A stretch of DNA of 64,000 bases from an uncultured Bacteroidales bacterium (GTDB lineage Bacteria > Bacteroidota > Bacteroidia > Bacteroidales > Muribaculaceae): assembly GCA_947644715.1 (NCBI GenBank), contig CANSAP010000003.1, forward strand, positions 62,001-126,000, in the 5' to 3' direction. This document shows, piece after piece, positions 46,132-62,596 of this stretch. Made by a program: the position numbers and the translations under genes. The notes beneath the pieces are model-generated. The model did no database searches. It was not told where the DNA came from and saw only the letters and a program-made list of their open reading frames with translations. Numbering within the stretch: the stretch's first letter is position 1; each line of letters starts with the position of its first letter.

Positions 46132-46145
46132 TTCCCATTGTTAGG

Positions 46146-46410
46146 AGGGTGTATCAAAATGTGAACCCGACGCTGAATGGCGCGGAGCGCCTATCCTCTG
46201 TTAGCCGGGGGGCTTCAGCCCCCCGGTATGCATGAAGCGACGACCCAGCCCCGGAAGGGCTGCCCTATATCGTTGGTTGTCAATGTATTGGACAGCCCTT
46301 CCCGGGCTGGCTCCGTCCGCCGGGCTACCGGGGGGCTGAAGCCCCCCGGCTAACAAGGGATAGGCGCTCCGCGCCATGCGTTTGCTTCAATAAGAATTTT
46401 GACACACCCT
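46146..46410. repeat. MITE-like repeat, 265 bp, with AGGGTGTGTCAAAA-type ends
   Basis: The ends AGGGTGTATCAAAA (46146-46159) and TTTTGACACACCCT (46397-46410) are inverted with 13 of 14 matching. Inside are the hairpin GGCGCGGAGCGCC, the palindrome GGGGGGCTTCAGCCCCCC (and its copy at 46330-46347) and a long imperfect stem between CAGCCCCGGAAGGGCTG and CAGCCCTTCCCGGGCTG. It has no ORF and no clear target duplication. It occupies most of the 365-bp gap before the 83-aa gene. Confidence 0.78.
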
Positions 46411-46444
46411 ATTCTTTACCTCACAATATTCTTTACCTCACAAC
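46411..46444. repeat. 17-bp tandem duplication
   Basis: ATTCTTTACCTCACAAT (46411-46427) is directly followed by ATTCTTTACCTCACAAC (46428-46444). It abuts the repeat ending at 46410 and precedes the 83-aa gene by 23 bp. Confidence 0.8.
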
Positions 46445-46944: not shown

Positions 46945-48498
46945 TCAGAGATTCGCCACGGGGCGGATGGTCAGACCGTAGGCGCGCTCTTCCCATACGG
47001 GAATTCGTATTTCGGGGCGCATGGTAATTTCGCTAACCTCAAAAGTGTATTTGTATGAATAGAATTCGTGGTCAATAGCTGTCGCCGTCCACGATGCGCA
47101 CTGATTTCGGAGTACCACACCACCGTCGAACATGCCTACAGTAGGAAGGAATATCTCTCCACCTGTGTCAGACGACCTGATGAGAAAACCGGGAACGGAA
47201 TCGTAGTAAGGGATAATCACGCAATAACGTTCCACCCATTCCATATCTTCAAGAGTGGGCATACGCCAGAGGCCACCCCAATGCTGAGATGCGGCATCAT
47301 GTTGGGGAACAAGGTTGTGATTGGCATCGATGTATCCGTTGGCTATAAGTGTCTCTAAATCTCCATATGATGGTAGGCCATATTGGTTATAAGGGAAGTC
47401 GTCGGCACCGAGGGGGTAGCCTTTGGTCATGCCCCACTGGAAATATAGACCGGTCTCCGAAGGGGTTTCGGCTCCGATATTCGTAGTTGCGAAGTACAGG
47501 GCGGGGACGTAATCGGGGTCACCATATTTCCCGACCGATGCACGCATCAGCACGGCTTCGTGGCCATTGATGTCAATGTTTTCAGGTTTATCGGGATGGG
47601 CTGTACCGGAAATTGTGCCATACTCACCTTCAATCCAGTCGCCGATGCTGACCTGACCGAGAATGAGGCCTGAGCGCTTGAGGGTGAAGTTGGCTGTGTA
47701 GCTTTTGCCGGCTTCGAGTTTTGGAGTGAAGGTGCAGACGTAGTTGTCACCCTCAAACTCTATGCTGAGTTCGACATCACCGGCGGTCTGAGGGAAGAAG
47801 ATTAGCTTGTATGTGGCCGTTCTATCGTTGATTTCCGTAAGGCCCGGGTGCAGCGCCACGTTGTCGGGAGTGCCGGTGGCCTTAGCTTGTCCGGAGGCGG
47901 TATCAAACTCTCCATCTTGGATTATGCCGCTTAGGTTGCATATCCCGGCATTAAGCACGTCGGTACTCTCGAAGCCCCAATCGGAACTCGCAGTGATATT
48001 GACTATCAGCTGCGCCATACTGTGCTTGAAGGCAGCCGTGCCAGTGAAATTCAGCTCAGGCTTGTCTTGGCTGCCCGTGGCCCCTGATGCGAAGAGGAAG
48101 TCGAACTCCGGGGCGTCAAATTGTTCGCCGGTAGAGGCGGTGATTAACCTATTCTCGGCGGTAACCTCCTTGTTATATGGATAATAGGCCGAGAACAAGG
48201 CTGTCCTGTTATCTTGAAAAAAGATTCCTTTACCTGTCCCGAAGAACGCCTCGAAACGGCCTGAGCCATCGGTGGTATAAGGCACATTGCAGTAAGCCAC
48301 CGAGCCGGAAGTGCCTGTGATGCCTATTTTGTCGTCGAGCGACCACTGTGTGCCGGAAGCACGGCTCTTAACTATGCCGGCAATGTCGGCAGAGACCACC
48401 GCAGCGCCGTCAGCGCCGTCGCTCTGCCACGGTTCGTCGGCGGCACAGGAGGCGAGAAGCAGTGCCGGGAGAACATATAATAGAGTTTTTGTTTTCAT
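46945..48498 (-). CDS. Fimbrillin-like lipoprotein with FISUMP-like C-terminal domain (last gene of operon)
   Basis: 517 aa. The start at 48498 (MKTKTLLYVLPALLLASC) was chosen by likeness to the 51012 start context. N-terminal Mfa-like half (about 20-300): VKSRASGTQWSLDDKIGI, YCNVPYTTDGSGRFEAFFG, LFSAYYPYNK. C-terminal FISUMP-like domain (about 310-517): NGHEAVLMRASVG, YFATTNIGAETPSETGLYFQWG, HWGGLWRMPTLEDMEW, ending GLTIRPVANL. It is a candidate fimbrial subunit or tip with an adhesive head. Confidence 0.83.
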   Translation of the reverse strand: MKTKTLLYVLPALLLASCAADEPWQSDGADGAAVVSADIAGIVKSRASGTQWSLDDKIGITGTSGSVAYCNVPYTTDGSGRFEAFFGTGKGIFFQDNRTALFSAYYPYNKEVTAENRLITASTGEQFDAPEFDFLFASGATGSQDKPELNFTGTAAFKHSMAQLIVNITASSDWGFESTDVLNAGICNLSGIIQDGEFDTASGQAKATGTPDNVALHPGLTEINDRTATYKLIFFPQTAGDVELSIEFEGDNYVCTFTPKLEAGKSYTANFTLKRSGLILGQVSIGDWIEGEYGTISGTAHPDKPENIDINGHEAVLMRASVGKYGDPDYVPALYFATTNIGAETPSETGLYFQWGMTKGYPLGADDFPYNQYGLPSYGDLETLIANGYIDANHNLVPQHDAASQHWGGLWRMPTLEDMEWVERYCVIIPYYDSVPGFLIRSSDTGGEIFLPTVGMFDGGVVLRNQCASWTATAIDHEFYSYKYTFEVSEITMRPEIRIPVWEERAYGLTIRPVANL

Positions 48499-48513
48499 TG
48501 TCATTCAAAGGGA

Positions 48514-49965
48514 TTAAAGGTTTGCAACCGGACGGATGGAAAGACCGGAATATGTTTCAGCCGGCGTCAGGTTGCTATAACTAAAAAGATCTTTAAGTAT
48601 AATATATGCAATCCCCCAACAACTTCCACCACGCGAACTCTCTTGTACCTGCGAACACCAGTACATGGCACCACCTCCATATTCAGACTCCGGACTACCG
48701 GCCCATGGCTCGTAAAAAAATCCGGTTAAAGGCAAAATAATACTATTGCCGGTCTCTTTACTCGTATACTTAACATAGGCACAGTGGCCTGAAGCTTCGT
48801 CTGAGGGACAGAGCTCCTGCTCGGTTTCAGTCCATAGCCACTGGAGTTCGCTAAATGTCATCATGCGCCATGGGCTGCCGTAGTGCTGTACGGCGGCATC
48901 ATATTCAGGAGTGAGTGTCCCGTCACTTACATTCTCAGTTGTAAGAGGGCTGGTTAACATACCATTATCAAAATATTCTTGGCATGAATCGAACATCTTG
49001 ATTTCGCTATTGTTTTTTGAGAAATCAAATCCGGAGTCGGCTGTATGCCCTTTGGTATCACCCCACCAGAAGAGCAGGCCGCCGTCATAGGGTGTGTCGG
49101 CTCCCACATTGCAGGTGGCGAAGTAGAGGGGGGGCACGTAGTCAGCCGAACCGGGAGTGCCGGAAGCGTTGCGCATCAGCACGGCTTCGTGGCCGTTGAT
49201 CTTTAATGCAGGTTTCTCGGATTCGAGATCAAAGGTGTAGACCTGTCCGGCCTTAATATCGTAATCGTATGAGAAATTATCTCCTGAGCCGTTGTAGAAA
49301 TAGAAAAGAGGGACAGCGGCAGTTGTGATTCTGCCGGGGCCTACGTTCGCAATAAAGTAGCCGCTCGTCCGGTCATAGTACATGGTGATGTAACCGCGTC
49401 CGTTCTTATCTTTTGTGGTAAACCCGTCCTCGTCAAGCGTATAGTAGACATAGCCGTAGAACATGGCATTACCGTAGTCCTCAGGATTAAAGCCGGAGAG
49501 TTTCATACGGATTTGCGCCAGCTGATGCTCCATATTCAGCTGCACGCATCGGCCGAACTCAGCAGTAGTGGTAGCCTTCATTGAGTATGCGAGCCCGTCG
49601 CTCTGATTGGTGTACCGGACAAAGGTAATGTTATGGTATATAGCCTTCACGTCGGCGGGAGCAGTGCTTGTCCAATAGATGGTCGGTGTGCAATCGGTGA
49701 TGTTGCCGTTGGCATCGAGGGTGGCGGTAGCTGTCTGCACCTGACCGTTTTGCGTGACCGTGATTGTGATTTTGTCGCCGTCATTCCAGGTGCAGCTCAT
49801 GCCGTCATCGGAGGCCGACACACGCGTCTGAGGAGCGAAGTCCACAGAGAACTCCATCGGGTACTTACCCTCGGGCAAAGTTTCGACGCCGGGTTCATCG
49901 GTGCTGCATGAGGCCAGCGCCGGAACCGCCAAAGCGAATAATAGGTATTTATAAATTGGTTTCAT
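48514..49965 (-). CDS. Diverged fimbrillin-like lipoprotein with FISUMP-like C-terminal domain
   Basis: 483 aa, lipobox PALASC. The N-terminal half is the most diverged of the set: PQTRVSASDDGMSCTWNDGD keeps the Arg and Trp-x-x-GD pattern, but the usual FSAYYPY is replaced by VKAIYHNITFV. The C-terminal domain starts NGHEAVLMRNASG and has YFATCNVGADTPYDGGLLFWWG, HYGSPWRMMTFSELQW and the end GLSIRPVANL. It is preceded by a 135-bp gap holding two hairpins. Confidence 0.78.
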   Translation of the reverse strand: MKPIYKYLLFALAVPALASCSTDEPGVETLPEGKYPMEFSVDFAPQTRVSASDDGMSCTWNDGDKITITVTQNGQVQTATATLDANGNITDCTPTIYWTSTAPADVKAIYHNITFVRYTNQSDGLAYSMKATTTAEFGRCVQLNMEHQLAQIRMKLSGFNPEDYGNAMFYGYVYYTLDEDGFTTKDKNGRGYITMYYDRTSGYFIANVGPGRITTAAVPLFYFYNGSGDNFSYDYDIKAGQVYTFDLESEKPALKINGHEAVLMRNASGTPGSADYVPPLYFATCNVGADTPYDGGLLFWWGDTKGHTADSGFDFSKNNSEIKMFDSCQEYFDNGMLTSPLTTENVSDGTLTPEYDAAVQHYGSPWRMMTFSELQWLWTETEQELCPSDEASGHCAYVKYTSKETGNSIILPLTGFFYEPWAGSPESEYGGGAMYWCSQVQESSRGGSCWGIAYIILKDLFSYSNLTPAETYSGLSIRPVANL

Positions 49966-49990
49966 TTGCTAAAATTTACTATTTGCGCCA

Positions 49991-50052
49991 CCGGCGGAGG
50001 CGAATCCGCCGGGCTACCATTTACTGATATGACCCTCCGTGCTTAACGCAAC
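49991..50052 (-). other. Intercistronic hairpins between fimbrillin genes
   Basis: CCGGCGGA (49991-49998) pairs with TCCGCCGG (50005-50012). Nearby, CCGTGC and GCACGG form a second stem (about 50028-50052). They could attenuate transcription, or stabilise the upstream mRNA, within the long operon. Confidence 0.5.
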
Positions 50053-50100
50053 GGCGCACGGCGGTGGCCGGGTCTAAGCGCCTATGCGGGCGCGGGTTCA

Positions 50101-51012
50101 TTACATTTCAGCATCGACGTTACCTCCGGGCTGGTTGGTCCAGTCGTTGATGGTTGCGGAGGTCACTTCGAGTCCCTGCTTCTTCACGGTGACGGTGTAG
50201 GAGTAGGAGGTGCCGGCCTCGAGGGCCGGAGCGATTGTGGCGAAGTATTCTTCGTTGTCGATGATTACGCGGTACTTCAGTTCGCCGGCTGCCTGCGGAT
50301 AGAGGATTACGCTGCTAACCATTGTTTCGGCGTCAGAGCCTGCAGTGGCGGGGATGGTCCAGAAGTCGGCAGCGGGATTGCCCGTGGCCTGAGCCAAGCC
50401 GGTGGCTGTGTCGAAGGTACCGTCAAGCTTCAGACCCTTGAGGGCGAATGCGCCGGAGGCGACCTCGGCGGGGGTGAAGCCGGCGTCGGGGTCGACCTTT
50501 ACGGTGATGACCAGGCGCGTCATGCAGTGGTTGAAGGCGTTGGCCCCGGTGAAGGAGATGGAGGAAGCGGTGCGGGAACCGATAGCCTCCTTGGCAAAGA
50601 GATAGTCAAACTCCTTCTGCTTCGACTGGTCGGCTGTTGAACCGGTGAGCACACCTGCGGCAGTCCCCTCGGAGCCGCTGAAGGGATAGTAGGCCGAGAA
50701 GGTGACCTCTTCGGTGTCCTGGAAGAAGATGCCGGTGGGTTTGCCTCCGACGTGGGCGAAGATGCCGTCGCCGCCGGTCTCGTAGGCCATGTTGGCATAC
50801 TCAGTCTTGCCGTTGGCCGATGTGCAGGAGATGCCGATTTGGTCCCCCTGTTCCCAGGAGGTGTCGTAGGCGCGCGATTTTACGCCGGCAATGTCGGCAG
50901 AGAAACTTGCGGCGATGAGTTCGCCATCCTGAGCCGCACCGGGCTCTTCACTCGAGCAGCTTGCAAGCATCAGAGTTGCAGCTGCGAAAACGATGTATTT
51001 TGTTGTTTTCAT
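50101..51012 (-). CDS. Fimbrillin-like lipoprotein, short form
   Basis: 303 aa, lipobox LMLASC. Mfa-like core: VKSRAYDTSWEQGDQIGISC, YANMAYETGGDGIFAHVGG, VTFSAYYPFSG and FNHCMTRLVITVKV. There is no C-terminal accessory domain; it ends ATINDWTNQPGGNVDAEM, close to the ends of the first fimbrillin gene and the Mfa2-type gene of this operon. Probably a structural subunit that polymerises by strand exchange after lipoprotein export and proteolysis. Confidence 0.85.
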   Translation of the reverse strand: MKTTKYIVFAAATLMLASCSSEEPGAAQDGELIAASFSADIAGVKSRAYDTSWEQGDQIGISCTSANGKTEYANMAYETGGDGIFAHVGGKPTGIFFQDTEEVTFSAYYPFSGSEGTAAGVLTGSTADQSKQKEFDYLFAKEAIGSRTASSISFTGANAFNHCMTRLVITVKVDPDAGFTPAEVASGAFALKGLKLDGTFDTATGLAQATGNPAADFWTIPATAGSDAETMVSSVILYPQAAGELKYRVIIDNEEYFATIAPALEAGTSYSYTVTVKKQGLEVTSATINDWTNQPGGNVDAEM

Positions 51013-51021
51013 TGTCAGGGA

Positions 51022-52740
51022 TTATTCTGTTATTTCGAAGTAAGTCGCCATTTGGTATGTGGGTTTATAGGGGTACGGGTCGGGATTGGCTATTGTAACC
51101 GGTGTATAGAATTTGAACGTACCGCCATTCACGGCTACACCCTCGCAGGTTCCACTGCCTGAAGCTCCAAACACCACAGCACGTTTCGGCTTGCTGCCGT
51201 CACTATAAAAAGTGCCATCATTTACTGTTATGACGCCGCAAGTTCCATTCAGAGTGCCGAAAAGAGAACCGGCCTCATTACCTTCGCAATAGTTATTGTA
51301 CAGATAGGTGCCTCCATTGATAGTGATATTGCCTATGGTGGCATCTATCGACCCGACATTGCAATCATTCAGTCGATCTAAGAAATAGTACACACCTGAT
51401 TCAAACACTATATCACCACCTTCTTCTCCATCTCGCACTCCGATGAATATTGGTGTTTCCCATTGATTGGGAGGTCCGAATGTGGTATGATTAGAGTTTT
51501 CGTATGACCAGACATGCCAAGGCATCAGTGTGTCATCCTGGTTAATCCCTTTCAGGGTCAATGTCGTGCCCTTTGGACCAGGCTGGATGCATGGTTTGGA
51601 AGAATAGCCTGTGAAATCATTTTTGCCATCAAAGGTTATGGTTGCATTCCCTTCACAAATGATGGGCTTGTCTACCATTTGCACTCCTCTTACAGTTAAT
51701 TCAGCGTCATTCGCCAATGTGACTGTGAAGTTTGGAAGAGAAGGTTTGCCGGTGAGTGTCACAGTACCATCAACTATCAGGCGCTTCTTCAAAGTTGAAA
51801 GGTCAACCTCCCCTTCGGTGGCGAGTACGTAATCGGGTGGGATGGTTGCGTCGCCGGTGAAGGAGCCGTTCTCTTCCCAGTCAGTAATCTCCGCATTGCC
51901 GACGGTGAGGCCGGTTTTGCGCAGGGTGATATTGGTGGTGCAGCGTTTGCCGGCTACGAGCGTCGGGATGAATGTGCAGCGGTAAAAGTTGCCGTTGTAT
52001 TCAAGGAGTAGCTCGACATTATCGGCGGTCTGCGGGAAGAGAATCAAGGAATATTTGGCGGTGTCGCCATCGATGTCTGCATTACTGAGGATGAAGTTGG
52101 CGGTGGTTCCGCTTGCTGAGGCGATACCTGTGGCGGTGTCAAACTCACCCTCCTTCACGAGGCCGCCGAGGGTGATTCGGCCCTTGTCCGTCACTGTCTC
52201 CACACCCTCGTTGAAACCGTCATTGCGGTCAACCGAGAGCGTGATAACCAACTGTGCCATGCGGTGGCTGAAGGCTGCATTCCCGATGAAGTTCAGCGCC
52301 GGAGAGCTCAGGCTCCCCTTGGCGCCTGTGGCATACAGGAAGTCGAAGGTCTCGGCCTGTGTCTGGTCAGCGGTAGAAGCGCTGATGACGGAATTGTCGG
52401 CAGTCACATCCGCGCTGTAAGGATAGTAGGCGGAGAATGCTGCCGGATTGCTATCCTGGAAGAATATGCCGGCGGCTACGCCATTGAGGGGGGCGAAGGT
52501 GCCGTCACCTGCGGCGGTGACATACGGGACATTAGTATAGGTCACCGAGCCGGTTGTGCCGGAGATGCCGATGCAGTCGCCGGAGGCCCACTGCGTGCCG
52601 GAAGCGCGGCTTGTCACCGCTCCGATATTGGCCGTGACTACTGCTGCACCGTCGGCGCCGGCCATCTGCCCCGGTTCGTCGCTCGAACAGGAGGCGAGAA
52701 GCAACGCCGGAAGAGCGTATAAGAGATATTTTGTTCTCAT
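51022..52740 (-). CDS. Fimbrillin-like lipoprotein with beta-helix-like C-terminal domain
   Basis: 572 aa. The N-terminal half (1-300) is nearly identical in long runs to the next gene upstream (shared VTSRASGTQW, GISGTTGSVTYTNVPYVTA, FAPLNGVAAGIFFQD). The C-terminal half is different: repetitive beta rungs such as LIVDGTVTLTGKPSLPNFTV, ITFDGKNDFTGYS, ITINGGTYLYNNYC and VAVNGGTFKFY, ending YFEITE. The fold suggests a solenoid binding domain replacing the FISUMP-like domain. It is 10 bp upstream of the short fimbrillin gene. Confidence 0.83.
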   Translation of the reverse strand: MRTKYLLYALPALLLASCSSDEPGQMAGADGAAVVTANIGAVTSRASGTQWASGDCIGISGTTGSVTYTNVPYVTAAGDGTFAPLNGVAAGIFFQDSNPAAFSAYYPYSADVTADNSVISASTADQTQAETFDFLYATGAKGSLSSPALNFIGNAAFSHRMAQLVITLSVDRNDGFNEGVETVTDKGRITLGGLVKEGEFDTATGIASASGTTANFILSNADIDGDTAKYSLILFPQTADNVELLLEYNGNFYRCTFIPTLVAGKRCTTNITLRKTGLTVGNAEITDWEENGSFTGDATIPPDYVLATEGEVDLSTLKKRLIVDGTVTLTGKPSLPNFTVTLANDAELTVRGVQMVDKPIICEGNATITFDGKNDFTGYSSKPCIQPGPKGTTLTLKGINQDDTLMPWHVWSYENSNHTTFGPPNQWETPIFIGVRDGEEGGDIVFESGVYYFLDRLNDCNVGSIDATIGNITINGGTYLYNNYCEGNEAGSLFGTLNGTCGVITVNDGTFYSDGSKPKRAVVFGASGSGTCEGVAVNGGTFKFYTPVTIANPDPYPYKPTYQMATYFEITE

Positions 52741-52766
52741 ATAAATAAATTTATTAGCTGAGGAGG

Positions 52767-54305
52767 TTAAAGTGTTGCTACGGGGCGCAGGTTAAGACCA
52801 TTTGTGCGCGTTGCATCGTGCGAGCCGTTGTGCGCCGATGGAACCATGCTTATCCCGTAAAATCGGTCGTTGTTAACATTGACAGGCTCATCTTCAGGGA
52901 AAATCGTTGCACCGCCGTAGACAGTCATTGAATCCACTCCATAAAGCATCGAATCTGACATGTATCCGGAATGACGGAGCCTAATCTCACCTCCGGTTGA
53001 TTTGGATTTAACAATCCAAACCAGTCCGTTATTACTACCTATATTCCCGCTAATGGTCCAGGTGCAATTCTCGGTGTCACCTAACCAAGCCCAATCTTCG
53101 TGGGTCGGCAGTCTCCATCGTCCTCCCCACTTAACTGAGGCGGCATCATATTCCGGCAGCAGGTTACCATTGGCATCGATGATGCCCTCCTCGAAGAGTT
53201 GCTTGCGAGTCTTGCCATTAGTGATAATCTCGGGATTATCACTGTCAAAACCGGAGTAATGGCCCTCAACGTCGCCCCACCAGAAGTAACCGCCTATCTC
53301 ATCGGGCATGGTTGCGCCGATGTTGCAGGTGGCGAAGTAGAGGGCAGGCTCGGTGTCGGTGGCGGCGCGCATCAGGACAGCTTCGTGACCGTTGAAGGGG
53401 TCATACCAAGAGGCCTCGTCGTTGAAGGAGTCGCCCGATTCCCAGTCGGTGATTTCGGAGCCTCCGACGGTGAGGCCGCTTTTGCGCAGAGTGATGTTGG
53501 CGGTGTAGCGTTTGCCGGCGGCGAGCGTCGGGAGGAAGGTGCAGCTGTATGTGACGCCTTCATATTCGATGCTCAACTCGACGTTTTCGGCAGTCTGCGG
53601 AAAGAGAATCAGGAGGTAATCGGCGGTGTTGCCGGCGATCTCCGGATTGCTCAGAGTGAAGTCAGAGGCAGAACCTGTGGCGGAAGCTATGCCTGTCGAG
53701 GTGTTAAACTCACCCTCCTGCGCGATGCCGCCAAGGGTGATTGTGCCCTTGGCCGTCACTGCATCCATCCCTTCGCTGAAACCGTCATTGCGGTCAACCG
53801 AGAGGTTGATGGCCAACTGCGCCATGCGGTGGTTGAAGGCTGCATTGCCGGTGAAGTTCAGCGCCGGGGAGCTCAGGCTTCCCTTGGCGCCTGTGGCATA
53901 GAGAAAGTCGAAGGTCTCGGTCTGCGTCTGGTCGGCTGTAGAAGCTTTGATGACGGAATTGTCGGCGGTCACATCCGCGCTGTAAGGATAGTATGCGGAG
54001 AATGTAGCATCATGGCCATCCTGGAAGAATATGCCGGCGGCCACACCATTGAGGGGTGCGAAGGTGCCGTCACCTGCAGCTGTGACATACGGGACATTGG
54101 TATAGGTCACCGAGCCGGTTGTGCCGGAGATGCCGATGCGGTCGTCGGCAGTCCACTGCGTGCCGGATGCGCGGCTTGTCACCGCTCCGATATTGGCCGT
54201 GACTACTGCTGCGCCCGGGGCGCCGCTCCCCAGCCCCGGTTCGTCGTTCGAACAGGAGGCAAGGAGCAAGGCCGGAAGGGTGTATAAGAGATATTTGAAT
54301 TTCAT
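52767..54305 (-). CDS. Fimbrillin-like lipoprotein with FISUMP-like C-terminal domain
   Basis: 512 aa, lipobox LLLASC. Mfa-like N-terminal half shared with the next gene downstream (VTSRASGTQWTADDRIGIS, TYTNVPYVTAAGDGTF). C-terminal domain from PFNGHEAVLMRAATDTEPAL, with YFATCNIGATMPDEIGGYFW, KWGGRWRLPTHEDWAW and the end GLNLRPVATL. The FISUMP-like call rests on the W-R-[LM]-P-T motif and closing RPV; relatedness to C-type-lectin-like folds is possible. Confidence 0.83.
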   Translation of the reverse strand: MKFKYLLYTLPALLLASCSNDEPGLGSGAPGAAVVTANIGAVTSRASGTQWTADDRIGISGTTGSVTYTNVPYVTAAGDGTFAPLNGVAAGIFFQDGHDATFSAYYPYSADVTADNSVIKASTADQTQTETFDFLYATGAKGSLSSPALNFTGNAAFNHRMAQLAINLSVDRNDGFSEGMDAVTAKGTITLGGIAQEGEFNTSTGIASATGSASDFTLSNPEIAGNTADYLLILFPQTAENVELSIEYEGVTYSCTFLPTLAAGKRYTANITLRKSGLTVGGSEITDWESGDSFNDEASWYDPFNGHEAVLMRAATDTEPALYFATCNIGATMPDEIGGYFWWGDVEGHYSGFDSDNPEIITNGKTRKQLFEEGIIDANGNLLPEYDAASVKWGGRWRLPTHEDWAWLGDTENCTWTISGNIGSNNGLVWIVKSKSTGGEIRLRHSGYMSDSMLYGVDSMTVYGGATIFPEDEPVNVNNDRFYGISMVPSAHNGSHDATRTNGLNLRPVATL

Positions 54306-54323
54306 TTTGTCGGTTCCAAATTG

Positions 54324-54434
54324 TTAAATATTGAACTCATGCGGCTGCTCGATGCAGAGGTTGCATGTCGCGAATAGCGCGGGTTCGGAATCGGTTGCGA
54401 CACGCATCATTAGAACCTCGGGGCCGTTGAAGGG
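54324..54434 (-). pseudogene. Frameshifted relic of a FISUMP-like domain
   Basis: In a frame different from the fimbrillin gene at 54410, the minus strand reads PFNGPEVLMMRVATDSEPAL, then FATCNLCIEQPHEFNI and a stop at 54324-54326. This aligns with PFNGHEAVLMRAATDTEPAL and YFATCNIGATMP in the neighbouring gene. It is the start of the accessory domain, broken by a frameshift near 54434 and deleted beyond about 37 residues. Confidence 0.82.
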
Positions 54435-55354
54435 GCAGCGGGTTCCATGCCGGCGTCGATATCCTGTGCAGGCTCATCCTCCCAGTCGGTGATGGTGGAT
54501 GAGGCTACAGTGAGGCCGGTCTTCTTGAGGGTGACGTTGTAGGTGTAGCGCTTGCCGGGGGCGAGTGCGGGAGTGAGCGTGCAGCTGTAGACAGCGCCAC
54601 CATACTCGATGCGGTAGGTGATGCCACCGTTGACCGTCTGCGGGAAGAGAATCATCGCGAAGGTGATGGTGCTCTCTTCGGTGACGGGGGTGACGTTGCC
54701 ATTGAGAGTCCAGTCGGCTGCCTCACCTGTGGCGGTGGCTTCACCGGTGGCGGTGTTGAACTCACCTTCAGACTTCAGGCCACTGAGGGTGCTGACCCCA
54801 TCAGTGAGCGCGGCGGATGCGTCGAAGCCTGAATTGTTGTCCGGAGTCACTTTGATTACGAGCTGCGTCATCCGGTGAGAGAAGGCGGCATCGCCGGTGA
54901 ACTTGATAGCCGGGTTGGCCACACTGCCGGTGGCACCGGAGGCGAAGAGGAAGTCGAATTCTTTTGATTTCGACTGGTCGGCAGTAACGGCTGTGATTTC
55001 GGTCTTGTCAGCGGTCACAGCGGCTTTATAGGGGTAATAGGCTGAGAAGGTGGCTGTCTCCTTATTCTGGAAGAAGATGCCGTTCTCAATGCCATTAGCC
55101 GCGGAGAAGACTCCGTCGCCGGTGGTGCTGTAAGGCACGTTGATGTAGTCCACCGTGCCGGAGGTACCGGAGATACCGATGCGGTCGCCGGCATCCCACA
55201 CGTTGTCATGGGCGCGGCTCTTCATCACCCCGGCAATGTCAGCGGTAACCACCGCTGCGCCGTCGGCACCCGCGTCGCCAATAGCAGGCTCCTCATTGGA
55301 GCAGGCCGCCAGCATCAGTGCCGGCACTGCATATAACAGATATTTTAGTTTCAT
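54410..55354 (-). CDS. Fimbrillin-like lipoprotein, truncated by frameshift
   Basis: 314 aa, lipobox LMLAAC. The Mfa-like core is intact: MKSRAHDNVWDAGDRIGISG, VDYINVPYSTTGDGVFSA, TFSAYYPYKAAV and FSHRMTQLVIKVTP. It ends ITDWEDEPAQDIDAGMEP followed by AAPSTAPRF, nine residues translated from the wrong frame of a decayed accessory domain (54324-54434). The core may still work as a short subunit, like the other single-domain members. Confidence 0.85.
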   Translation of the reverse strand: MKLKYLLYAVPALMLAACSNEEPAIGDAGADGAAVVTADIAGVMKSRAHDNVWDAGDRIGISGTSGTVDYINVPYSTTGDGVFSAANGIENGIFFQNKETATFSAYYPYKAAVTADKTEITAVTADQSKSKEFDFLFASGATGSVANPAIKFTGDAAFSHRMTQLVIKVTPDNNSGFDASAALTDGVSTLSGLKSEGEFNTATGEATATGEAADWTLNGNVTPVTEESTITFAMILFPQTVNGGITYRIEYGGAVYSCTLTPALAPGKRYTYNVTLKKTGLTVASSTITDWEDEPAQDIDAGMEPAAPSTAPRF

Positions 55355-55373
55355 ATAGGTCTTGAGATTGGGG

Positions 55374-56318
55374 TTATTCTGCGTCTACGTTGCCACCGTC
55401 GGTCTGAATCCAGGGGGTGATGGTGCAGCCGTTGACGGTGAGGGAGGTCTTGTGGAGAGTCACAGTGATGGTGTACTGGCGGCCTGCAATCCATTCGTTA
55501 GCGGCTGTGGCATCGCCGGCGGCGCTGTTGCCGGCAGTAAAGTCAAGGACTGCCTTGAACTCCTGACGGCCGTCGAGGGTGGCTACGATGGGCAGGGTTG
55601 CGTTGAAGGACTGCGGGAAATGAATCATCGAATAGCTTACGGTCTCAGCAGCATCGTCGATGGTGAAGGGTGCGTTGAACGAGGCATCGGCGTTGCCGGC
55701 GAAGGTGTAAAGCTCAGAAGCTGCGCCGGTGGCTGTGGCTGTGCCGGCAGCCGGGTCAAACTGACCCTCATTGATGAATCCGCCGAAGGCAATCTTAGCC
55801 TCCTTGACCTCCTCGAAGCTGACATCAGCGCCACGCTTGATGACCAGCACGACCTTGCTCATCTTGTGGGCGAAGTTGAAGGCCACGTTGGGCTGAGCCT
55901 TGCTGCCCTGAGCCTGCGACCAAAGGTAATCAAACCTCTTCTGGTTGGCCTGCTCGTGTGTGTCAGCGAGGATTACGTCGGCGTTCAGCATCTGCTCATA
56001 GGGATAATAAGCTGTGAAGGTGACCGGGGCGTCAGTCTGATAATAGATTTCAGATCCGGGAGTAACCACGGTGAAATCGCCTGAGCCGTCGGTGGCGTAA
56101 GCCACGTTCTTGTAGGTCTTTTCGCCTGAAGTGCCGGTGATGCCTATTTGGTCGCCTGCCTCCCACACGGCATCATATGCACGTGTATTATGAGAATTGA
56201 TAGTGGCAAAGAAGCGAGCCTCGTTGCCATTAGTTGCCTCGGGAGTGTCACCCTCGCTTGAGCAAGAAGCCAAAGCCAAGACTGCCAGGGGACAAAGCAT
56301 TAAAACTTTCTGAATCAT
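55374..56318 (-). CDS. Fimbrillin-like lipoprotein, first of the fimbrillin series
   Basis: 314 aa. The start at 56318 (MIQKVLMLCPLAVLALASC) gives a good lipobox; a longer frame reading into the previous gene lacks one. Core motifs: SHNTRAYDAVWEAGDQIGIT, YKNVAYATDGSGDFTV, VTFTAYYPYEQ and FAHKMSKVVLVIK. It ends CTITPWIQTDGGNVDAE. Position right after the Mfa2-type gene suggests that this is the major or stalk-proximal subunit; that is inference. Confidence 0.86.
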   Translation of the reverse strand: MIQKVLMLCPLAVLALASCSSEGDTPEATNGNEARFFATINSHNTRAYDAVWEAGDQIGITGTSGEKTYKNVAYATDGSGDFTVVTPGSEIYYQTDAPVTFTAYYPYEQMLNADVILADTHEQANQKRFDYLWSQAQGSKAQPNVAFNFAHKMSKVVLVIKRGADVSFEEVKEAKIAFGGFINEGQFDPAAGTATATGAASELYTFAGNADASFNAPFTIDDAAETVSYSMIHFPQSFNATLPIVATLDGRQEFKAVLDFTAGNSAAGDATAANEWIAGRQYTITVTLHKTSLTVNGCTITPWIQTDGGNVDAE

Positions 56319-56370
56319 TGTTATAAATGTTGATATAGATTGATTGTTTATTTCGTTTAATGAGCATCGA

Positions 56371-57216
56371 CTAATGAGCATCGACGTTGCCGCCATCCAC
56401 GGCGTGCCAGTTTTCAATCGTTGACGAAAACCCGGGTTGCTTGGGCAAGCTCAGAGATGCGGAGAGTGTGAGCGGCTCAATGTCGTCATGAAAGTCGGTT
56501 AACTGCCCGGTGAGGTCACTGACGATGGTCTGCGTGTCGCCGTTGCTGAACATTATATGAGTAGTCAGGGTTTTCGCATCGCCGGGCACAAGACCGAGCA
56601 AATGATAGGTTATGGTGAACTTATCGGAGCCGACTTCGTAGTCGTTAACCACTGTGGCCGCCCGTGCCAAGCGTTCCCCGGTCAGCAGGTTTACCGCACT
56701 CTCCACCCCTTCCAGCGTTCCGGTGGAGCCGGTGACCCGCGACACATCACCATCGGCTATGCGCAGCTCGATGCGAAGGGTGCGCACATACTGGGTCATG
56801 GGAGCCGTAACGCGCAGGGTATCATCAGCGGCAACGGCAATTTCCGCCGAATAGCCGAACAGGAAACCGGGGAGCGGATGGATTCGATTGGAGGCTCGAG
56901 AATAACTCGCAACGGTGGCTATGTTTCCGGAGATGTTGATACCCTCCGGTTGATTATACACGAGCATCCTGTGTTGGCCGGGGTTTAACAGTGACCCGAA
57001 GGTATTGGTCAGTCCTGAAACCTCCTGCGCCTGCTCACCGATGCGGATAACATAGTCCTCCGGAATAGCGGCATTGCTGCTGCGCCCCTCCCAGTCGGTA
57101 GTTACGACCAGGGCGCCGGCTGTGGGATGCGGTGTGTCAAAAAGTTCGTCCTTGACACACGATGTCATCAAGGCTGCAGCCGCAGTTGCAAAGAGAAGAA
57201 GTGAAGTCTTATTCAT
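56371..57216 (-). CDS. FimB/Mfa2-type fimbrial anchor or tip subunit
   Basis: 281 aa, lipobox AALMTSC. The layout fits the FimB/Mfa2 group: ALVVTTDWEGRSSNAAIPEDYVIRIG-like opening, FGSLLNPGQHRMLVYNQPEGI, then PMTQYVRTLRIELRIADGD and a C-terminal LTGQLTDFHDD domain. Such proteins stay lipid-anchored and end or limit the fimbria. The C-terminal WHAVDGGNVDAH matches the tails of two fimbrillins in the operon. Confidence 0.84.
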   Translation of the reverse strand: MNKTSLLLFATAAAALMTSCVKDELFDTPHPTAGALVVTTDWEGRSSNAAIPEDYVIRIGEQAQEVSGLTNTFGSLLNPGQHRMLVYNQPEGINISGNIATVASYSRASNRIHPLPGFLFGYSAEIAVAADDTLRVTAPMTQYVRTLRIELRIADGDVSRVTGSTGTLEGVESAVNLLTGERLARAATVVNDYEVGSDKFTITYHLLGLVPGDAKTLTTHIMFSNGDTQTIVSDLTGQLTDFHDDIEPLTLSASLSLPKQPGFSSTIENWHAVDGGNVDAH

Positions 57217-57277
57217 CGTAAGTTGCTGGTCAAGCTTAAAAATATAATTTTCGTAGCGGTTTAATTTGAACAGCTAC

Positions 57278-58360
57278 TTATAGTATTTTCCAAGTTAAGG
57301 TTACAGCAGCGGAGATTGGTCCCCACCAATCTTTCTCTCCTCTGCCCTGATGCACGCGTACTCCGTCAATCACATTGTAGCGGTCATAATTGGCGTGTAG
57401 GTAGCCCAAGCCGAGTGAGAAGTCAAGACTGAGGCAACGATTGAGTGGAAGCGCATAACCGCCGGTGATGCCGCCCCCGAGGATGTTGCCCTGCTTGCCA
57501 TATTCGGAGAATTTATAGTTGAAGGCTCCGACCTTATACATCGCCCCCACATAGCCACGGCACTTCTTGCCGATATAGTAGCGGAATTCCGGAGCAATCT
57601 CGCGCAGTGCGTAGCGACGGTCTTTGTCGTTCCAGCTCCATGAGGTCCAAGAGCCGTTGACCACCAGGGCGTAACGCTGCTTGAAGCGCAGCTCCAGCCC
57701 CAAGTCTGGAGTCAGGGTTGCCCAGCGCAGCAGATTGGCACGGAGGTAGAGGCCGATCTGATTCCTGTTATCCGAAGCCCCGTCAACAGTGAGAGGGAAG
57801 AGTTTGTTGTAATATTTCACAATCTTGCCCTGCATGATGTTGAGAGCGGCTTCGATTGCCGCCTCCTCGGAATTAAAGTAATGGGAATCGTCTCCGCCGG
57901 TGAATTTATGTGTACGGGTTTGTCCGGTGGCAGCATCAGTGAGTGCAAGCGAAACGGCTACTGAAGCGGAATGGGTGGTAATGGTTTTCTTAACCATCTC
58001 TCCATCAGAGCCTTTCAATTCCGCAGTTCGTGATTTTGTACGGGTATCGATGTCAATGACCTCTCCGGAGAGATTAAACTGACCGGCGCCATCAACGGGC
58101 GTCAACCGGGGCACATCAGCAAAAGCGGTGCTGACCACTGCATTGATATATGACACCACTTCCGGATGACGGTTATTGTCGTTTTGGCCGGGAGCCGCTT
58201 GTGCGTCAGTGGCCGAAGCGGAGCCGTCGGGATTGCTTTTTGTCGGCTCAGCATAAGTCAACGGGTCTATATGCAGACTATACGCCTCATTCATATTCTG
58301 CCCGAATGAGGGGGTTATCATACATACAAATAATATCGCTAATAAAAATTGTTTCTTCAT
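57278..58360 (-). CDS. DUF3575 beta-barrel protein of the fimbrial locus
   Basis: 360 aa with a signal peptide (KKQFLLAILFVCMITPSFGQ). The N-terminal half carries a periplasmic region with KTITTHSASVAVSLALTDAA. The C-terminal half is the DUF3575 barrel: IGLYLRANLLRWATLTPDLG, LEQ-type strands and RYALREIAPEFRYYIGKKCR, ending VTLTWKIL. DUF3575 proteins commonly precede Mfa-type genes in Bacteroidales and may help assembly or anchoring. The gap of 54 bp to the previous gene includes one repeat end at 58392-58405. Confidence 0.84.
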   Translation of the reverse strand: MKKQFLLAILFVCMITPSFGQNMNEAYSLHIDPLTYAEPTKSNPDGSASATDAQAAPGQNDNNRHPEVVSYINAVVSTAFADVPRLTPVDGAGQFNLSGEVIDIDTRTKSRTAELKGSDGEMVKKTITTHSASVAVSLALTDAATGQTRTHKFTGGDDSHYFNSEEAAIEAALNIMQGKIVKYYNKLFPLTVDGASDNRNQIGLYLRANLLRWATLTPDLGLELRFKQRYALVVNGSWTSWSWNDKDRRYALREIAPEFRYYIGKKCRGYVGAMYKVGAFNYKFSEYGKQGNILGGGITGGYALPLNRCLSLDFSLGLGYLHANYDRYNVIDGVRVHQGRGEKDWWGPISAAVTLTWKIL

Positions 58361-58391
58361 CCTTATCATAGAATTGTTCTGTGGTCAGTCA

Positions 58392-58405
58392 TTTTGATAC
58401 ACCCT
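58392..58405. repeat. Solo end of the AGGGTGTGTCAAAA repeat family
   Basis: TTTTGATACACCCT is the complement of AGGGTGTATCAAAA, the exact left end of the repeat at 46146. It lies alone in the 54-bp gap between the DUF3089 and DUF3575 genes. Confidence 0.6.
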
Positions 58406-58414
58406 CTGACTGTG

Positions 58415-59395
58415 TTACTGTCGTTGTCTGTAAGCGTCGATTCTCTGATGGAAGTTCTGGCGAAGGCATTCGCTGTAAACCCACGGCTCAATGCCATGGT
58501 AGTCCCCCACGTTGAGAATGTCGAGTATGTTTGGAAGGTAGCTGCCGTCAAACCCGTCAAGCACAAGCACCTTTGCCTGAGGGTCGAGTGTCACCGTTAT
58601 TGTGTCATTGAGGATAGCCGGAGTTGCATCGGTGCGCCAGTTCACGGGATTGATGCACATTACATTAGGCGCACTGACCACCGGTTTCATGTATTTCACA
58701 TCCGACACGGAGTTATAGCAAATCACTACCCCTGTGTCGATGGCATTCTGAGCTGCCTTGATATATGGATGTGCAGCCACATCGTCGGGCGTCACTTTAT
58801 ATCCTAAGACATAGGCTGCAATCATTCGTTGGCGGGTTGCATCATCCATGATTTTAAGCAGCTCGACAACTGATTTACCACCCTGGCTGAACCCGGCCAG
58901 GATGAATGGCCGGTTATGGTTTTCCTTCTCAATGAAATGAGTGAATGCGTTTTTGACGTCAACGAAAGCCACATCGTGATAGCGGCGGTTAATCGTGTCT
59001 TCATTGAGCGTGGCCCAAGAATCCAGTGTAATATGCCGATAATAGGGTGAATAGAAATTATTCCCCTCCGCCATATATTCGGCAACGTTATCAATCTCGA
59101 TGGACATGTGGTCACGGTGAGCGGCAAGCGACGGATCGGCGTGGTGACTCACCAAGTTGTTCTCGGTGCGCCAATCATATTCCCAGGTGGAGGGAATATA
59201 GAAGACATCTGCGCCGGTGCCGTCAACATCGTTTTTGAGCACGGTCCACATCAGAGCATCCGAGTAGTCAGGCTTAATCGGCACATAGACTTGCTCATCC
59301 GCCCTCACATCAGCGAGGGATTCATTGCAACCTGAGGCATAAAAGATAGCCAAGGCGCATAGAAAAGAGATTGACAGTTGTCGCAATATTTTCAT
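58415..59395 (-). CDS. DUF3089 alpha/beta-hydrolase lipoprotein
   Basis: 326 aa. The start at 59395 places the lipobox YASGC (C23) after a signal helix. DUF3089 features: DVFYIPSTWEYDW near residue 63, then FILAGFSQGGKSVVELL with nucleophile S170 in GFSQGG, and YVLGYKVTPDD. It is an esterase/lipase-like serine hydrolase anchored in the envelope. It lies in the fimbrial operon between small lipoproteins and DUF3575, an unusual partner for fimbriae. The substrate is unknown. Confidence 0.83.
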   Translation of the reverse strand: MKILRQLSISFLCALAIFYASGCNESLADVRADEQVYVPIKPDYSDALMWTVLKNDVDGTGADVFYIPSTWEYDWRTENNLVSHHADPSLAAHRDHMSIEIDNVAEYMAEGNNFYSPYYRHITLDSWATLNEDTINRRYHDVAFVDVKNAFTHFIEKENHNRPFILAGFSQGGKSVVELLKIMDDATRQRMIAAYVLGYKVTPDDVAAHPYIKAAQNAIDTGVVICYNSVSDVKYMKPVVSAPNVMCINPVNWRTDATPAILNDTITVTLDPQAKVLVLDGFDGSYLPNILDILNVGDYHGIEPWVYSECLRQNFHQRIDAYRQRQ

Positions 59396-59462
59396 TATTT
59401 GATACATTTGTCCTTGACCGTCATTCGACAGTCAAGGACAGCGGTCATTAATTGGTTAAGAA

Positions 59463-59849
59463 TTAATTGCTTCCCCGATTGAATGTGTAGGAATATACTA
59501 CCTGATTAGAATTTTGCTCGCGGACAGCGAAGGTGGCGGTGAACCCCCACTCTTTGTCCTTCAACGTCTGCTCAACTTTCTCGCAGGCAGCTTTTACTCT
59601 GGCATCACATTCGCTCCGGGTACCGTTCAAGATAAACGGGCTATCCTCAACGCCAAGTGCGGTTGCGTAAGCTTCTTCAACAATTGCCATGTCAGGAATC
59701 ATCGACGCACCGCCGCTAATTTTACCTTCCCAGCCATAGGTGTAAATCACCTGGCCCGGCTCATCATCATCACTGCAAGCAGTGAGAGAGAGGCTTGCCA
59801 ACACTACTAAGAGCGCAAGCATGAGTTTTGTCAAAAGTTCTTTTTTCAT
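59463..59849 (-). CDS. Small lipoprotein of unknown function (128 aa)
   Basis: 128 aa. The start at 59849 gives a signal helix and lipobox LSLTAC, then a Cys-Ser-Asp-Asp-Asp-Glu tail. Mature part: VIYTYGWEGKISGGASMIPD, then DARVKAACEKVEQTLKDKEW and a strand pair ending VVYSYTFNRGSN. No family recognised. It is conserved in position only as far as this window shows, in the leading part of the fimbrial operon. Confidence 0.75.
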   Translation of the reverse strand: MKKELLTKLMLALLVVLASLSLTACSDDDEPGQVIYTYGWEGKISGGASMIPDMAIVEEAYATALGVEDSPFILNGTRSECDARVKAACEKVEQTLKDKEWGFTATFAVREQNSNQVVYSYTFNRGSN

Positions 59850-59885
59850 TGATTGTTTTAAGTTCTTTAAGAAACTGTTCTCCAC

Positions 59886-60434
59886 TTATTTCAACTCAGG
59901 AATAAACTTGAAGTCAAGGATTGTTTGCGTGCCTTTGTTAATGAGCTTTTGGAGTTCATAGGCTGAAACATTGCCTGCGGTTATTTTATTTGAGCCCCTG
60001 CTGCCATAATCAGGCAACGTCTCCCCTTTGGCGTTCTTACCCGTGACGATGCATTGCACATCCATAGTCACATCATAAAGCTTTTCCGGGTCGATGGCCG
60101 GAGCATCCTTTTTGGGAGTGGCCTCTACCAGGCAGATGATGGGATTGGGGGCAGCAGCCAACGGAAATGTAAAAGTGCCCTTTGCATTGGAAGTAAGCAT
60201 CAGCGACTGAGTACCCGTATCGGTGGTAAGTGTTACTTTGATATCGAAATAGTCGTACCAAGCCTGGCCGAACTTAAGATAGTCAAAGACTTCAACCGTA
60301 GCAACGATATTATCGTTGTTTACAGGGGCATCCGGTTCATCATCATTTCCGCATGAAGTCAAAGCAACTGCCGGAAGGAGGAGCAGAAGGAATGTGAGTA
60401 CACTCCAAGTGTTTTTGAAAATATTCTTTGTCAT
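59886..60434 (-). CDS. Lipoprotein of unknown function (182 aa)
   Basis: 182 aa, lipobox VALTSC followed by GNDDEPD, typical of surface-exposed Bacteroidales lipoproteins. The mature part is a beta-sandwich-like chain: IVATVEVFDYLKFGQAWYDY, IKVTLTTDTGTQSLMLTS, IICLVEATPKKDAP and a C-terminal TILDFKFIPELK. No family recognised. It is the second gene of the operon, 69 bp after the 45-aa peptide gene and 36 bp before the 128-aa lipoprotein gene. Confidence 0.77.
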   Translation of the reverse strand: MTKNIFKNTWSVLTFLLLLLPAVALTSCGNDDEPDAPVNNDNIVATVEVFDYLKFGQAWYDYFDIKVTLTTDTGTQSLMLTSNAKGTFTFPLAAAPNPIICLVEATPKKDAPAIDPEKLYDVTMDVQCIVTGKNAKGETLPDYGSRGSNKITAGNVSAYELQKLINKGTQTILDFKFIPELK

Positions 60435-60503
60435 AATTCCAAAGTGTTTATAACATATCCATCATATAAGTGACTCTTCTATCGCGACACTTATGCCCTT
60501 GAG

Positions 60504-60641
60504 TCAAGCTAAAACGTTGGCAAGTTTCAGCAGGCTAAATATCATGACTATTCCAAGAATGCAAGCGATAATCAATGCTATGCCGGAGAGAACCGGCAAG
60601 CCTGCTTTTACTTTGTCGATGAATGATTCCTTTTCAAGCAT
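60504..60641 (-). CDS. 45-aa single-pass membrane peptide, first gene of the fimbrial operon
   Basis: 45 aa: MLEKESFIDKVKAGLPVLSG followed by one membrane helix (IALIIACILGIVMIFSLLKL) and ANVLA. Charged N-terminus, hydrophobic C-terminus. It lies between the operon promoter and the first lipoprotein gene, in the same direction. No family recognised. It could be a regulatory or assembly micropeptide or a leader peptide; coding is supported by the clean helix pattern and by its place, not by homology. Confidence 0.6.
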   Translation of the reverse strand: MLEKESFIDKVKAGLPVLSGIALIIACILGIVMIFSLLKLANVLA

Positions 60642-60697: not shown

Positions 60698-60727
60698 CAA
60701 AATTAGTAATGAAACGAGATGTGCACA
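60698..60727 (-). promoter_or_regulatory. Promoter of the fimbrial operon
   Basis: Minus strand TTG (60727-60725), 19-nt spacer, TAATTTTG (60705-60698). No equally good promoter was seen further down the operon, so it may drive 46945-60641. Confidence 0.72.
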
Positions 60728-60744
60728 AGAAATCACACTTCGGG

Positions 60745-60820
60745 TTTGTACTCTCTCCGGTAAAAACCTCCCGGAACCGGAGTACAAATGCTGAAAAATT
60801 TGTACTCTCGCGTGTACTCT
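60745..60820. promoter_or_regulatory. Cluster of TGTACTCT repeats between operon and regulator
   Basis: TTTGTACTCTC occurs at 60745-60755 and 60799-60809, TGTACTCT again at 60813-60820, and an inverted AGTACAAA at 60781-60788. The first and inverted copies also pair as CTCCGGT/ACCGGAG-like arms. They sit just upstream of the operon's -33 box and 94-170 bp before the regulator -7 box, as expected of activator sites for the divergent AraC-type regulator. Confidence 0.65.
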
Positions 60821-60925: not shown

Positions 60926-62596
60926 ATGAAATATCGCTGTATCTTACCTCTGCTACTCTCTCTAACGTTTATATTGAATGGCTATGCAGCCACTTCCGGC
61001 AACACGGATTTGGCTCAGACGCTACGCGCCAAAATCGTCGATTCCCCGGATTCTGTTATTGCTGAGTTGGATAAGATTGAGGCACAGAAGCGTCCCGGGC
61101 TTCCGGCCTACCAAATCAATCTGCTGCGTGGCATTGCTTACAACGAAAAGCGTATGTTCTCCCTGGTCGAGCGGTATGCCCGGAAGGCACTCGCTTCCGA
61201 CTCAATATCAACACACCCGCAGGAGTATCTTAATGCGCTGACTCTTCTGGCTGTTGCTCAATCATACTTTGGGGACTACCAAGGCAGCATCGACACCTCC
61301 ATCAAGGGTATGGAATTGGCACGTAAGGAGGGTAACAAAGCAGCCGAATACAATATCCTCACTACAATGGCGAAAACTTCGTTCACAATGGGAAATCGGA
61401 AACAGGGATATGAGTATCTTGACCAAATAATTTCGGAAGGCTCAAAATCTACTGATGCCCGGGTGCTTGCCAATGTATCTGCCGCCTACGGGGTTAAGAT
61501 AGTGGAATTATATGCCGATGACAAATTTGCCGAAGGCCTTTCTCAGGGGAGGAAACGTCTTGCGCTGATTGATGAAATAGAGAAGGTTGGGGGTAGTCCC
61601 GCAGGCTTTACCGATCAACAACGCGCCTACGCTTATGCCCGGATAGCATCATGCGCAGAACGCCTCGGCATGAAGGCAGACGCCGCCCGGGCCTACAACG
61701 ATTTCATGGCCACTGATTATGCGAAGAATCCTGTCGGCCGAATCTACATTATGGACTATCTTCTTGACTCCGGACAATGGGGAAAAGTGCTTGAGTTCAC
61801 GGCGCCGCTATATCCCATGTTTGAGGGTGCCGACACAATAAACGGCGACTATCATAGCCTCCTTATTTCAGATGGACGTGCGCAGGCCGGACTTGGAAAC
61901 TATCGGGAGGGCTACGGATTGATTCAGCGTGCTGCGGCAATACAGGATTCTCTTTACATGAGAGAAAAAACTACCAGAGCACAGGAATTGGCCTCCGTGT
62001 TCGCCCTTAACGAGAAGGAGCTCTCGCTCGTCAACGAGAAAGCAAAATCTCAACGCAAGCATTTGTTACTGATAGCTGCAAGCGGTATCGCAGTTCTTAT
62101 TCTCATTATCCTTCTGTTGGTTTGGAGAGCATACCGTATTTCGGTCAAGCAACAACGCATCGCGGCTAAACGCATTGATGAACTTAGTGCACAACGGCCT
62201 CTTGATGTGGATGCCACACCGGAGAACCAAAAAGATTACGCCCTATTCGCAGAGATGCAGTCAAAGATAATCAGCGAGGCTCTTTTCAAATCGCCTGAAT
62301 TCAATCGTGACAGCATAGCTGAGGCAACCGGATTAAGCTGGGCAAAAGTTTCGCAATTAATCGGCCAATTCACGAGTCTTTCTCCCAATGAATATATCTC
62401 AAAACTGCGAGTGGAATACTCCGTTAAAATGATTAAGGAGCATCCGGAGTGGACAATCGACGCAATTGCAGAGAGCTGCGGCTACGTGCGCAGGGCAACA
62501 TATTACAGCCACTTCAATAAATTCTTTGGAATCTCTCCGGCGCAATACCGTAAAGAAAAAAGCAAAGCAGAATCGCAGAACGAAGAGACAGCATAG
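60926..62596 (+). CDS. TPR-transmembrane-AraC regulator, probable controller of the fimbrial operon
   Basis: 556 aa. Signal-like N-terminus (1-21), periplasmic helical TPR-like region (about 28-350), one membrane helix (about 379-401), then a cytoplasmic linker and AraC-type HTH (about 455-545) with GLSWAKVSQLIGQFTSLSPN and CGYVRRATYYSHFNKFFGIS, PAQYRKEK. It has no kinase or receiver domain, so a periplasmic signal would pass to a membrane-tethered DNA-binding domain. It is divergent from the fimbrial operon. The signal is unknown. Confidence 0.87.
   Translation: MKYRCILPLLLSLTFILNGYAATSGNTDLAQTLRAKIVDSPDSVIAELDKIEAQKRPGLPAYQINLLRGIAYNEKRMFSLVERYARKALASDSISTHPQEYLNALTLLAVAQSYFGDYQGSIDTSIKGMELARKEGNKAAEYNILTTMAKTSFTMGNRKQGYEYLDQIISEGSKSTDARVLANVSAAYGVKIVELYADDKFAEGLSQGRKRLALIDEIEKVGGSPAGFTDQQRAYAYARIASCAERLGMKADAARAYNDFMATDYAKNPVGRIYIMDYLLDSGQWGKVLEFTAPLYPMFEGADTINGDYHSLLISDGRAQAGLGNYREGYGLIQRAAAIQDSLYMREKTTRAQELASVFALNEKELSLVNEKAKSQRKHLLLIAASGIAVLILIILLLVWRAYRISVKQQRIAAKRIDELSAQRPLDVDATPENQKDYALFAEMQSKIISEALFKSPEFNRDSIAEATGLSWAKVSQLIGQFTSLSPNEYISKLRVEYSVKMIKEHPEWTIDAIAESCGYVRRATYYSHFNKFFGISPAQYRKEKSKAESQNEETA

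Follow-up and report, generated by a model that had tools for sequence, protein, structure and literature searches.

A pilus operon probably joined behind the regulatory front end of another system in a Muribaculaceae genome

We analyzed a 64,000-nt stretch of DNA (the window; positions 62,001 to 126,000 of contig CANSAP010000003.1, assembly GCA_947644715.1) from an uncultured bacterium of the family Muribaculaceae with a genome of 2.4 Mb, 97.85% complete, focusing on a fimbrial (pilus) operon that runs from 60641 to 46945 on the minus strand and on the AraC-type regulator gene that diverges from it. The operon consists of twelve genes and a 45-aa open reading frame (ORF), pep45, with gaps of 9–135 nt. 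An earlier note on this DNA, made from the sequence alone, had correctly recognized the same-strand run but had counted eleven genes besides the peptide gene. By sequence, eleven of the twelve genes encode proteins with a lipobox, the remaining one being the barrel gene. The features, in the direction of operon transcription, are:

60926–62596, plus strand: AraC-type regulator, 556 aa (Pfam HTH_18/HTH_AraC), divergent from the operon
60745–60819, minus strand: operator-like array GAGTACA, GAGTACAAA, inverted TTTGTACTC, GAGTACAAA, with spacing kept in relatives
60698–60705, minus strand: -7 box TAATTTTG of the operon promoter
60504–60641, minus strand: pep45, encoding a 45-aa peptide that has a single hydrophobic stretch; linked to the regulator
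59886–60434, minus strand: LP1, 182-aa small lipoprotein, predicted beta sandwich
59463–59849, minus strand: LP2, small lipoprotein of a second family (trimmed hidden Markov model, HMM)
59409–59440, minus strand: RNA hairpin between LP2 and the DUF3089 gene, without a T run
58415–59407, minus strand: DUF3089 lipoprotein, predicted esterase (Pfam 162 bits, cut-off 23.4)
58390–58406, minus strand: solo end resembling a miniature inverted-repeat transposable element (MITE), between the DUF3089 gene and the fused gene
57785–58369, minus strand: N-terminal domain of the fused gene, resembling a CsgG/FlgT-like gene that accompanies the regulator in a congener (59.8% to L244)
57278–57784, minus strand: fimbrial-type DUF3575 barrel, second part of the fused gene
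56371–57216, minus strand: Mfa2/FimB-like anchor pilin (Pfam Mfa2 weak, 18.5 bits, cut-off 21.2)
55374–56324, minus strand: fimbrillin A, without an extra domain (Pfam Mfa_like_1; exact start uncertain)
54410–55354, minus strand: fimbrillin B, C-terminal domain lost (Pfam Mfa_like_1)
54306–54409, minus strand: remnant of a C-terminal domain 3' of fimbrillin B (59-nt match to fimbrillin C at 72.9%, E 3e-5)
52767–54305, minus strand: fimbrillin C, with an extra C-terminal domain of the type common to F and G (Pfam Mfa_like_1)
51022–52740, minus strand: fimbrillin D, with a C-terminal domain unrelated to that of C (Pfam Mfa_like_1)
50101–51012, minus strand: fimbrillin E, without an extra domain (Pfam Mfa_like_1)
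48514–49965, minus strand: fimbrillin F, with a divergent pilin domain and an extra domain (Mfa_like_1 26.4 bits, cut-off 27)
46945–48504, minus strand: fimbrillin G, with an extra domain (Pfam Mfa_like_1)

The gene at 57278–58369 holds the joint between two different kinds of sequence. Its Pfam DUF3575 match (115 bits) is confined to the C-terminal half of the protein, where residues 196–363 are 50–69% identical to fimbrial barrels of other genera. Residues 6–193 are 59.8% identical, over 189 positions, to the product of a gene beside an 83%-identical regulator in a congener (G249), and a comparison of this N-terminal part with fimbrial DUF3575 proteins gave no convincing match (best E 0.03). 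The label CsgG/FlgT-like for the G249 protein derives from a weakly matched relative (L247:12726), the G249 protein itself having no Pfam match. The G+C content at third codon positions (GC3) rises at the joint from 0.51 to 0.66 (p 0.004), with a sliding window placing the step near codons 160–200. The same step separates two blocks of genes (0.53 vs 0.64, p 3e-9): the regulator, pep45, LP1, LP2, the DUF3089 gene and the N-domain lie at 0.46–0.57, and the barrel, anchor and pilins at 0.57–0.75, with an average of 0.69 for the 35 other genes of the window. As judged from its two halves, the DUF3575 gene is a chimera of a regulator-linked N-domain and a fimbrial barrel.

Of the genes upstream of the joint, pep45, LP1 and LP2 recur with the regulator rather than with pilins. 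Among 111 sampled genomes of the genus, the regulator has seven relatives at 54–83% identity, the next match being at 24%. We read the divergent operons (divergons) of all seven and scanned most of their larger proteins. That of G230 encodes, in order, pep45, an LRR_5 (leucine-rich repeat, LRR) protein, a small lipoprotein, LP2, Bmp, a periplasmic-binding/C13 peptidase protein and an unknown protein, and those of G246 and G167 each encode an LRR_5 protein and LP2. The G215 divergon (L248:1-10376) contains pep45, LP1, three MACPF proteins in a row, an unknown protein, Bmp and a last protein that resembles the C13 fusion by eye only. G174 has Bmp, the C13 fusion, two unknowns and LP1; G157 has a partial pep45, a 497-aa unknown lipoprotein and a small lipoprotein; and G249 has the CsgG/FlgT-like protein and a small lipoprotein. 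No pilin or DUF3575 barrel was matched in any of the seven by tblastn at E 0.001. Two family-level loci found through LP1, L037 and L038, also have a regulator relative alongside (47–58%), with a leukocidin match exactly at the cut-off in the former and a C10 peptidase in the latter. With HMMs restricted to the mature part, LP1 or LP2 was detected in five of the seven relatives' divergons, whereas 115 background loci with 1622 genes gave 3 matches (Fisher p 1.7e-5), all three lying beside or near a DUF3089 gene. The mature part of LP2 in the window is 61% identical to that of G230. In a locus of another genus (L039:4633-7860), we noticed five tandem small lipoprotein genes, one of which is LP1 by the trimmed model and the others only by the untrimmed one.

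The 45-aa ORF is a real gene because ORFs of two congeners are 73% and 61% identical to it and because it recurs in 4 of the 111 genus genomes, its own included, always adjoining the same regulator. Between the window copy and that of G230, 17 codon changes are synonymous and 12 are not. The copy in G157 (L287:3711-3839) is a partial match and may be broken.

Between regulator and operon, the four sites of the operator-like array lie 137, 149, 168 and 203 positions from the regulator start, and these positions recur within one base in G249, G230 and G157; G246, G167, G215 and G174 keep the 12-nt step between the first two sites. The pattern AGTAC-N7-AGTAC-N15-17-GTAC is present in seven of the eight genus divergons. 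In 2.56 Mb of other loci it matched four times, three of these matches being overlapping copies of divergon sites and one a pattern-fetched locus. The N16 form occurs in 2 of 148 genomes (once in the own genome and in one unrelated genome), and a reversed control gave six.

The earlier note had placed one promoter ahead of the whole gene run, in agreement with the -7 box TAATTTTG, which recurs at the corresponding position in the relatives and which we take to be a Bacteroidetes -7 type box; three boxes of this type were found in the region against 2.4 expected, about what chance would give. A scan with the E. coli consensus returned 29 sites vs 14 expected in shuffles, including two minus-strand sites in the gaps before the DUF3575 gene (58392-58365) and the Mfa2 gene (57270-57241). 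According to PMC12632263, the E. coli promoter consensus does not work in Bacteroides.

The part of the operon from position 57784 downward is, by its predicted products, an Mfa/FimA-type (type V) pilus operon, ordinary in kind but rich in tip variants. The earlier note had likewise identified a Bacteroidales fimbrial operon with DUF3575, Mfa2-type and Mfa1-type genes; Pfam matches DUF3575, matches Mfa2 weakly, and places Mfa_like_1 in all seven fimbrillins, six at 147–175 bits and F just under the cut-off. For the anchor pilin, whose Pfam score also falls under the cut-off, operon position and the relatives' genes agree on the assignment; this genome is the only one of the 111 genus genomes with this anchor gene (E 0.001). 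All seven fimbrillins have a lipobox and, near the N-terminus, an Arg site, [TS]R[AVI], that was looked for but not found in the anchor pilin and that we presume to be the cleavage site of a surface protease. Fimbrillin C matches PDB 3ufi at 2.7e-14. Type V pili are described in a 2025 review (PMC12632263) as built from a tip pilin with a C-terminal ligand-binding domain, a stalk pilin and an anchor pilin.

Four of the seven pilins (C, D, F and G) carry extra C-terminal domains. These end domains had no Pfam match over a cut-off; by their motifs they may resemble the C-type-lectin-like 'FISUMP' domains. The genes of C and D share 83.6% DNA identity over their first 884 nt and are unrelated beyond, as expected from the exchange of C-terminal domains that the earlier note had read into the seven subunits. 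This shared start and the decayed C-type piece behind B imply that the pilins multiplied by duplication and that their end domains were gained, swapped and lost along the way. A diversity-generating retroelement was considered as the source of the tip pilin variety and ruled out because a search of the genome, at its given completeness, for RVT_1 at E 0.001 detected no reverse transcriptase. The window also lacks a template-like copy of the pilin gene ends. The 135-nt gap ahead of fimbrillin F (49966-50100) contains a GC-rich inverted repeat.

Taken together, these observations make it probable that two systems share one transcription unit, a type V pilus operon having been joined behind a regulatory front end. 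What can be read directly from the sequences is which genes are present, that one of them is a fusion with a step in GC3, that the operator spacing is conserved, and that an orthologous regulator has different cargo. On this reading, the downstream system would be the pilus operon, with its DUF3575 barrel, anchor, stalk pilins and alternative tip pilins with exchangeable C-terminal domains, and the upstream system would be the front end, consisting of the oppositely directed AraC regulator, the four-site operator, the promoter, the 45-aa membrane peptide, LP1 and LP2, which in relatives faces other surface or secreted cargo. Recombination inside a gene would have produced the in-frame fusion of the CsgG/FlgT-like N-domain with the DUF3575 barrel, and either of the two joined parts may have been the one that moved. 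The regulator would then bind the operator and control the pili, the transcript would read through to the last pilin, and LP1 and LP2 might serve the cell surface in general. The unusual front of the fimbrial operon would thus be mostly a borrowed regulatory unit.

Several observations weigh against this view. The fusion gene is known from one assembly; its last 60 codons drop back to a GC3 of 0.53; pilins D, F and G (0.57–0.59) overlap the DUF3089 gene (0.57); and although the G249 and G230 divergons have a lower GC3 than their surroundings, the contrast is small or absent in G157, G246, G167, G215 and G174. The operator pattern was set after the alignment had been seen, and it is not found in the G157 divergon. 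The lipoproteins at the LP2 place in G249 and G157 are LP2-like in the signal peptide only (mature E 0.04 and 0.9), the LP1 proteins of G215 and G174, which account for two of the five HMM hits, were used in building the LP1 model, and the one from G174 was not recovered by plain tblastn. The last two pilins, F and G, may be expressed apart, given the 135-nt gap before them. Finally, a DUF3089 gene stands beside pilins in four loci of the Bacteroides group, so that this gene may belong to the pilus part.

This last point bears on the foremost alternative, that the leading genes are dedicated fimbrial accessories, in which case LP1 and LP2 would be minor subunits or would act as chaperones at the surface, and the DUF3089 protein would process pilins, their lipid or a glycan receptor. 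Leading genes and pilins do share one strand, short gaps and a single promoter, and a DUF3089 gene lies 0.1–1 kb from pilin-like genes in 4 of 80 sampled GTDB loci with this gene (L218, L222, L224 and L232, from Bacteroides and Mediterranea), and in two of them (L218 and L222) it is flanked by such genes on either side; DUF3089 may therefore be linked to fimbriae. The window protein is only 53–54% identical to the L218 and L222 copies, and the pairing may therefore have arisen more than once; on the other hand, all four loci come from one bacterial group and may represent a single inherited case. Against this alternative, pep45, LP1, LP2 and DUF3089 were sought without a match in L111-L116, six loci of the family with related fimbrial genes, where the barrel is 50–66% identical to the window's, an anchor is present in five and fimbrillins in four; L111 and L112 are close kin, and L113 and L116 run off the contig. 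The closest barrel overall, at 69%, belongs to L222 (Bacteroides sp. ET71), where the DUF3089 gene sits behind the pilins. Moreover, the LP1 and LP2 families stand ahead of genes for MACPF, LRR and peptidase proteins where no pilin occurs. We therefore regard dedicated accessories as unlikely. The oddity of the leading block that the earlier note had pointed out is borne out, but its view of the whole block as fimbrial machinery is not supported, since pep45, LP1 and LP2 accompany the divergent regulator, which the note had left aside, ahead of other cargo; the absence from all similar loci that it had named as a refuting result was found for these three in the loci read, but not for DUF3089.

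The DUF3089 gene itself could stem from either side, because pilin genes are close in four loci, an LP1- or LP2-family gene lies directly upstream in three of 100 loci examined for context (L186, L191 and L212), and beyond the pilin cases those 100 contexts contain no constant neighbour. The gene is present in 23 of 149 family genomes. Its product is most likely a short-chain esterase lipoprotein, judging from its domain: the Ser and His residues (S174 and H304) occur in every one of the 97 sequences aligned (the window plus the 96 of 100 loci with an ORF of 281–449 aa), which upholds the earlier call of a serine hydrolase, and esterase activity is reported for DUF3089 relatives in PMC4431682.

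A second alternative, in which a regulator island merely lies upstream of a fimbrial operon that has a promoter to itself and the fusion arose by accident, we consider decidedly improbable. In its favour, the low-GC3 block adjoins genome-like genes, the MITE-like end lies at 58390-58406 and two E. coli-type promoter matches occupy the gaps ahead of the DUF3575 gene and the anchor gene. Against it, the fusion continues the reading frame of the island's gene into the barrel, and the gaps from LP1 to fimbrillin A contain no TAnnTTTG box and no terminator-like site.

Beyond the joining of a pilus operon to a foreign front end, we tentatively suggest, at somewhat less than even confidence, that the regulator, the operator, pep45 and LP1/LP2 together act as a 'socket' in the family, a conserved unit of control and surface lipoproteins into which MACPF, LRR adhesin, peptidase or, here, pilus cargo is swapped by recombination, an idea that rests on eight divergons. 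If true, a lineage would swap its surface tool and keep the commanding signal. In this locus a pilus operon stands behind the regulator of another system and the joint can be seen in a single gene, a caution that operon neighbours need not be parts of one machine. The regulator, operator, pep45 and LP1/LP2 can serve as a handle in the search for other surface and secreted systems of the family.

Some smaller features complete the description. By inspection of its sequence, the regulator seems to have a TPR-like N-terminal half and a single transmembrane segment; PADLOC gave a weak TPR match and Pfam TPR none. For LP2, the ATG at 59849 is the probable start, not the GTG at 59885. For the hairpin at 59409–59440, a 71-nt stretch folds at -25.1 kcal/mol (z -6.0). 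Two MITE-like repeats with GAGGGTGTGTCAAAA-type ends lie on either side of the region (window 46145-46411 and 62678-62955).

Compared with known systems, the locus resembles the congener regulator divergons (L244, L286-L289, L248 and L254) in the regulator, in the operator spacing (six of seven), in pep45 (three) and in LP1 or LP2 (five), but differs in cargo, theirs being LRR, MACPF, peptidase or CsgG-like, with no pilin found. The DUF3575-Mfa2-fimbrillin loci L111-L116 and L222 have the same gene order, with barrels at 50–69% and anchors at 26–41% identity, whereas their DUF3575 proteins have an unrelated N-domain and they lack pep45, LP1 and LP2 (0.9 kb covered upstream in L222); the regulator beside L113 and L114 is a different AraC protein (24–31% to the window's). 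With the Bacteroidales type V pili (Mfa1/FimA; PDB 3ufi, BACOVA_04980), the operon shares lipoprotein pilins, the Arg site, a putative anchor and extra C-terminal domains, and is set apart by seven pilins, four of them with extra domains, by the fused DUF3575 gene and by the foreign front end. The DUF3089 protein has the Pfam domain and the GxSxG nucleophile of the DUF3089 esterases (family XV, Est10; PMC4431682); Est10 is described there as coming from a rumen metagenome and having a signal peptide, whereas the gene in the window encodes a lipoprotein and lies inside an operon.

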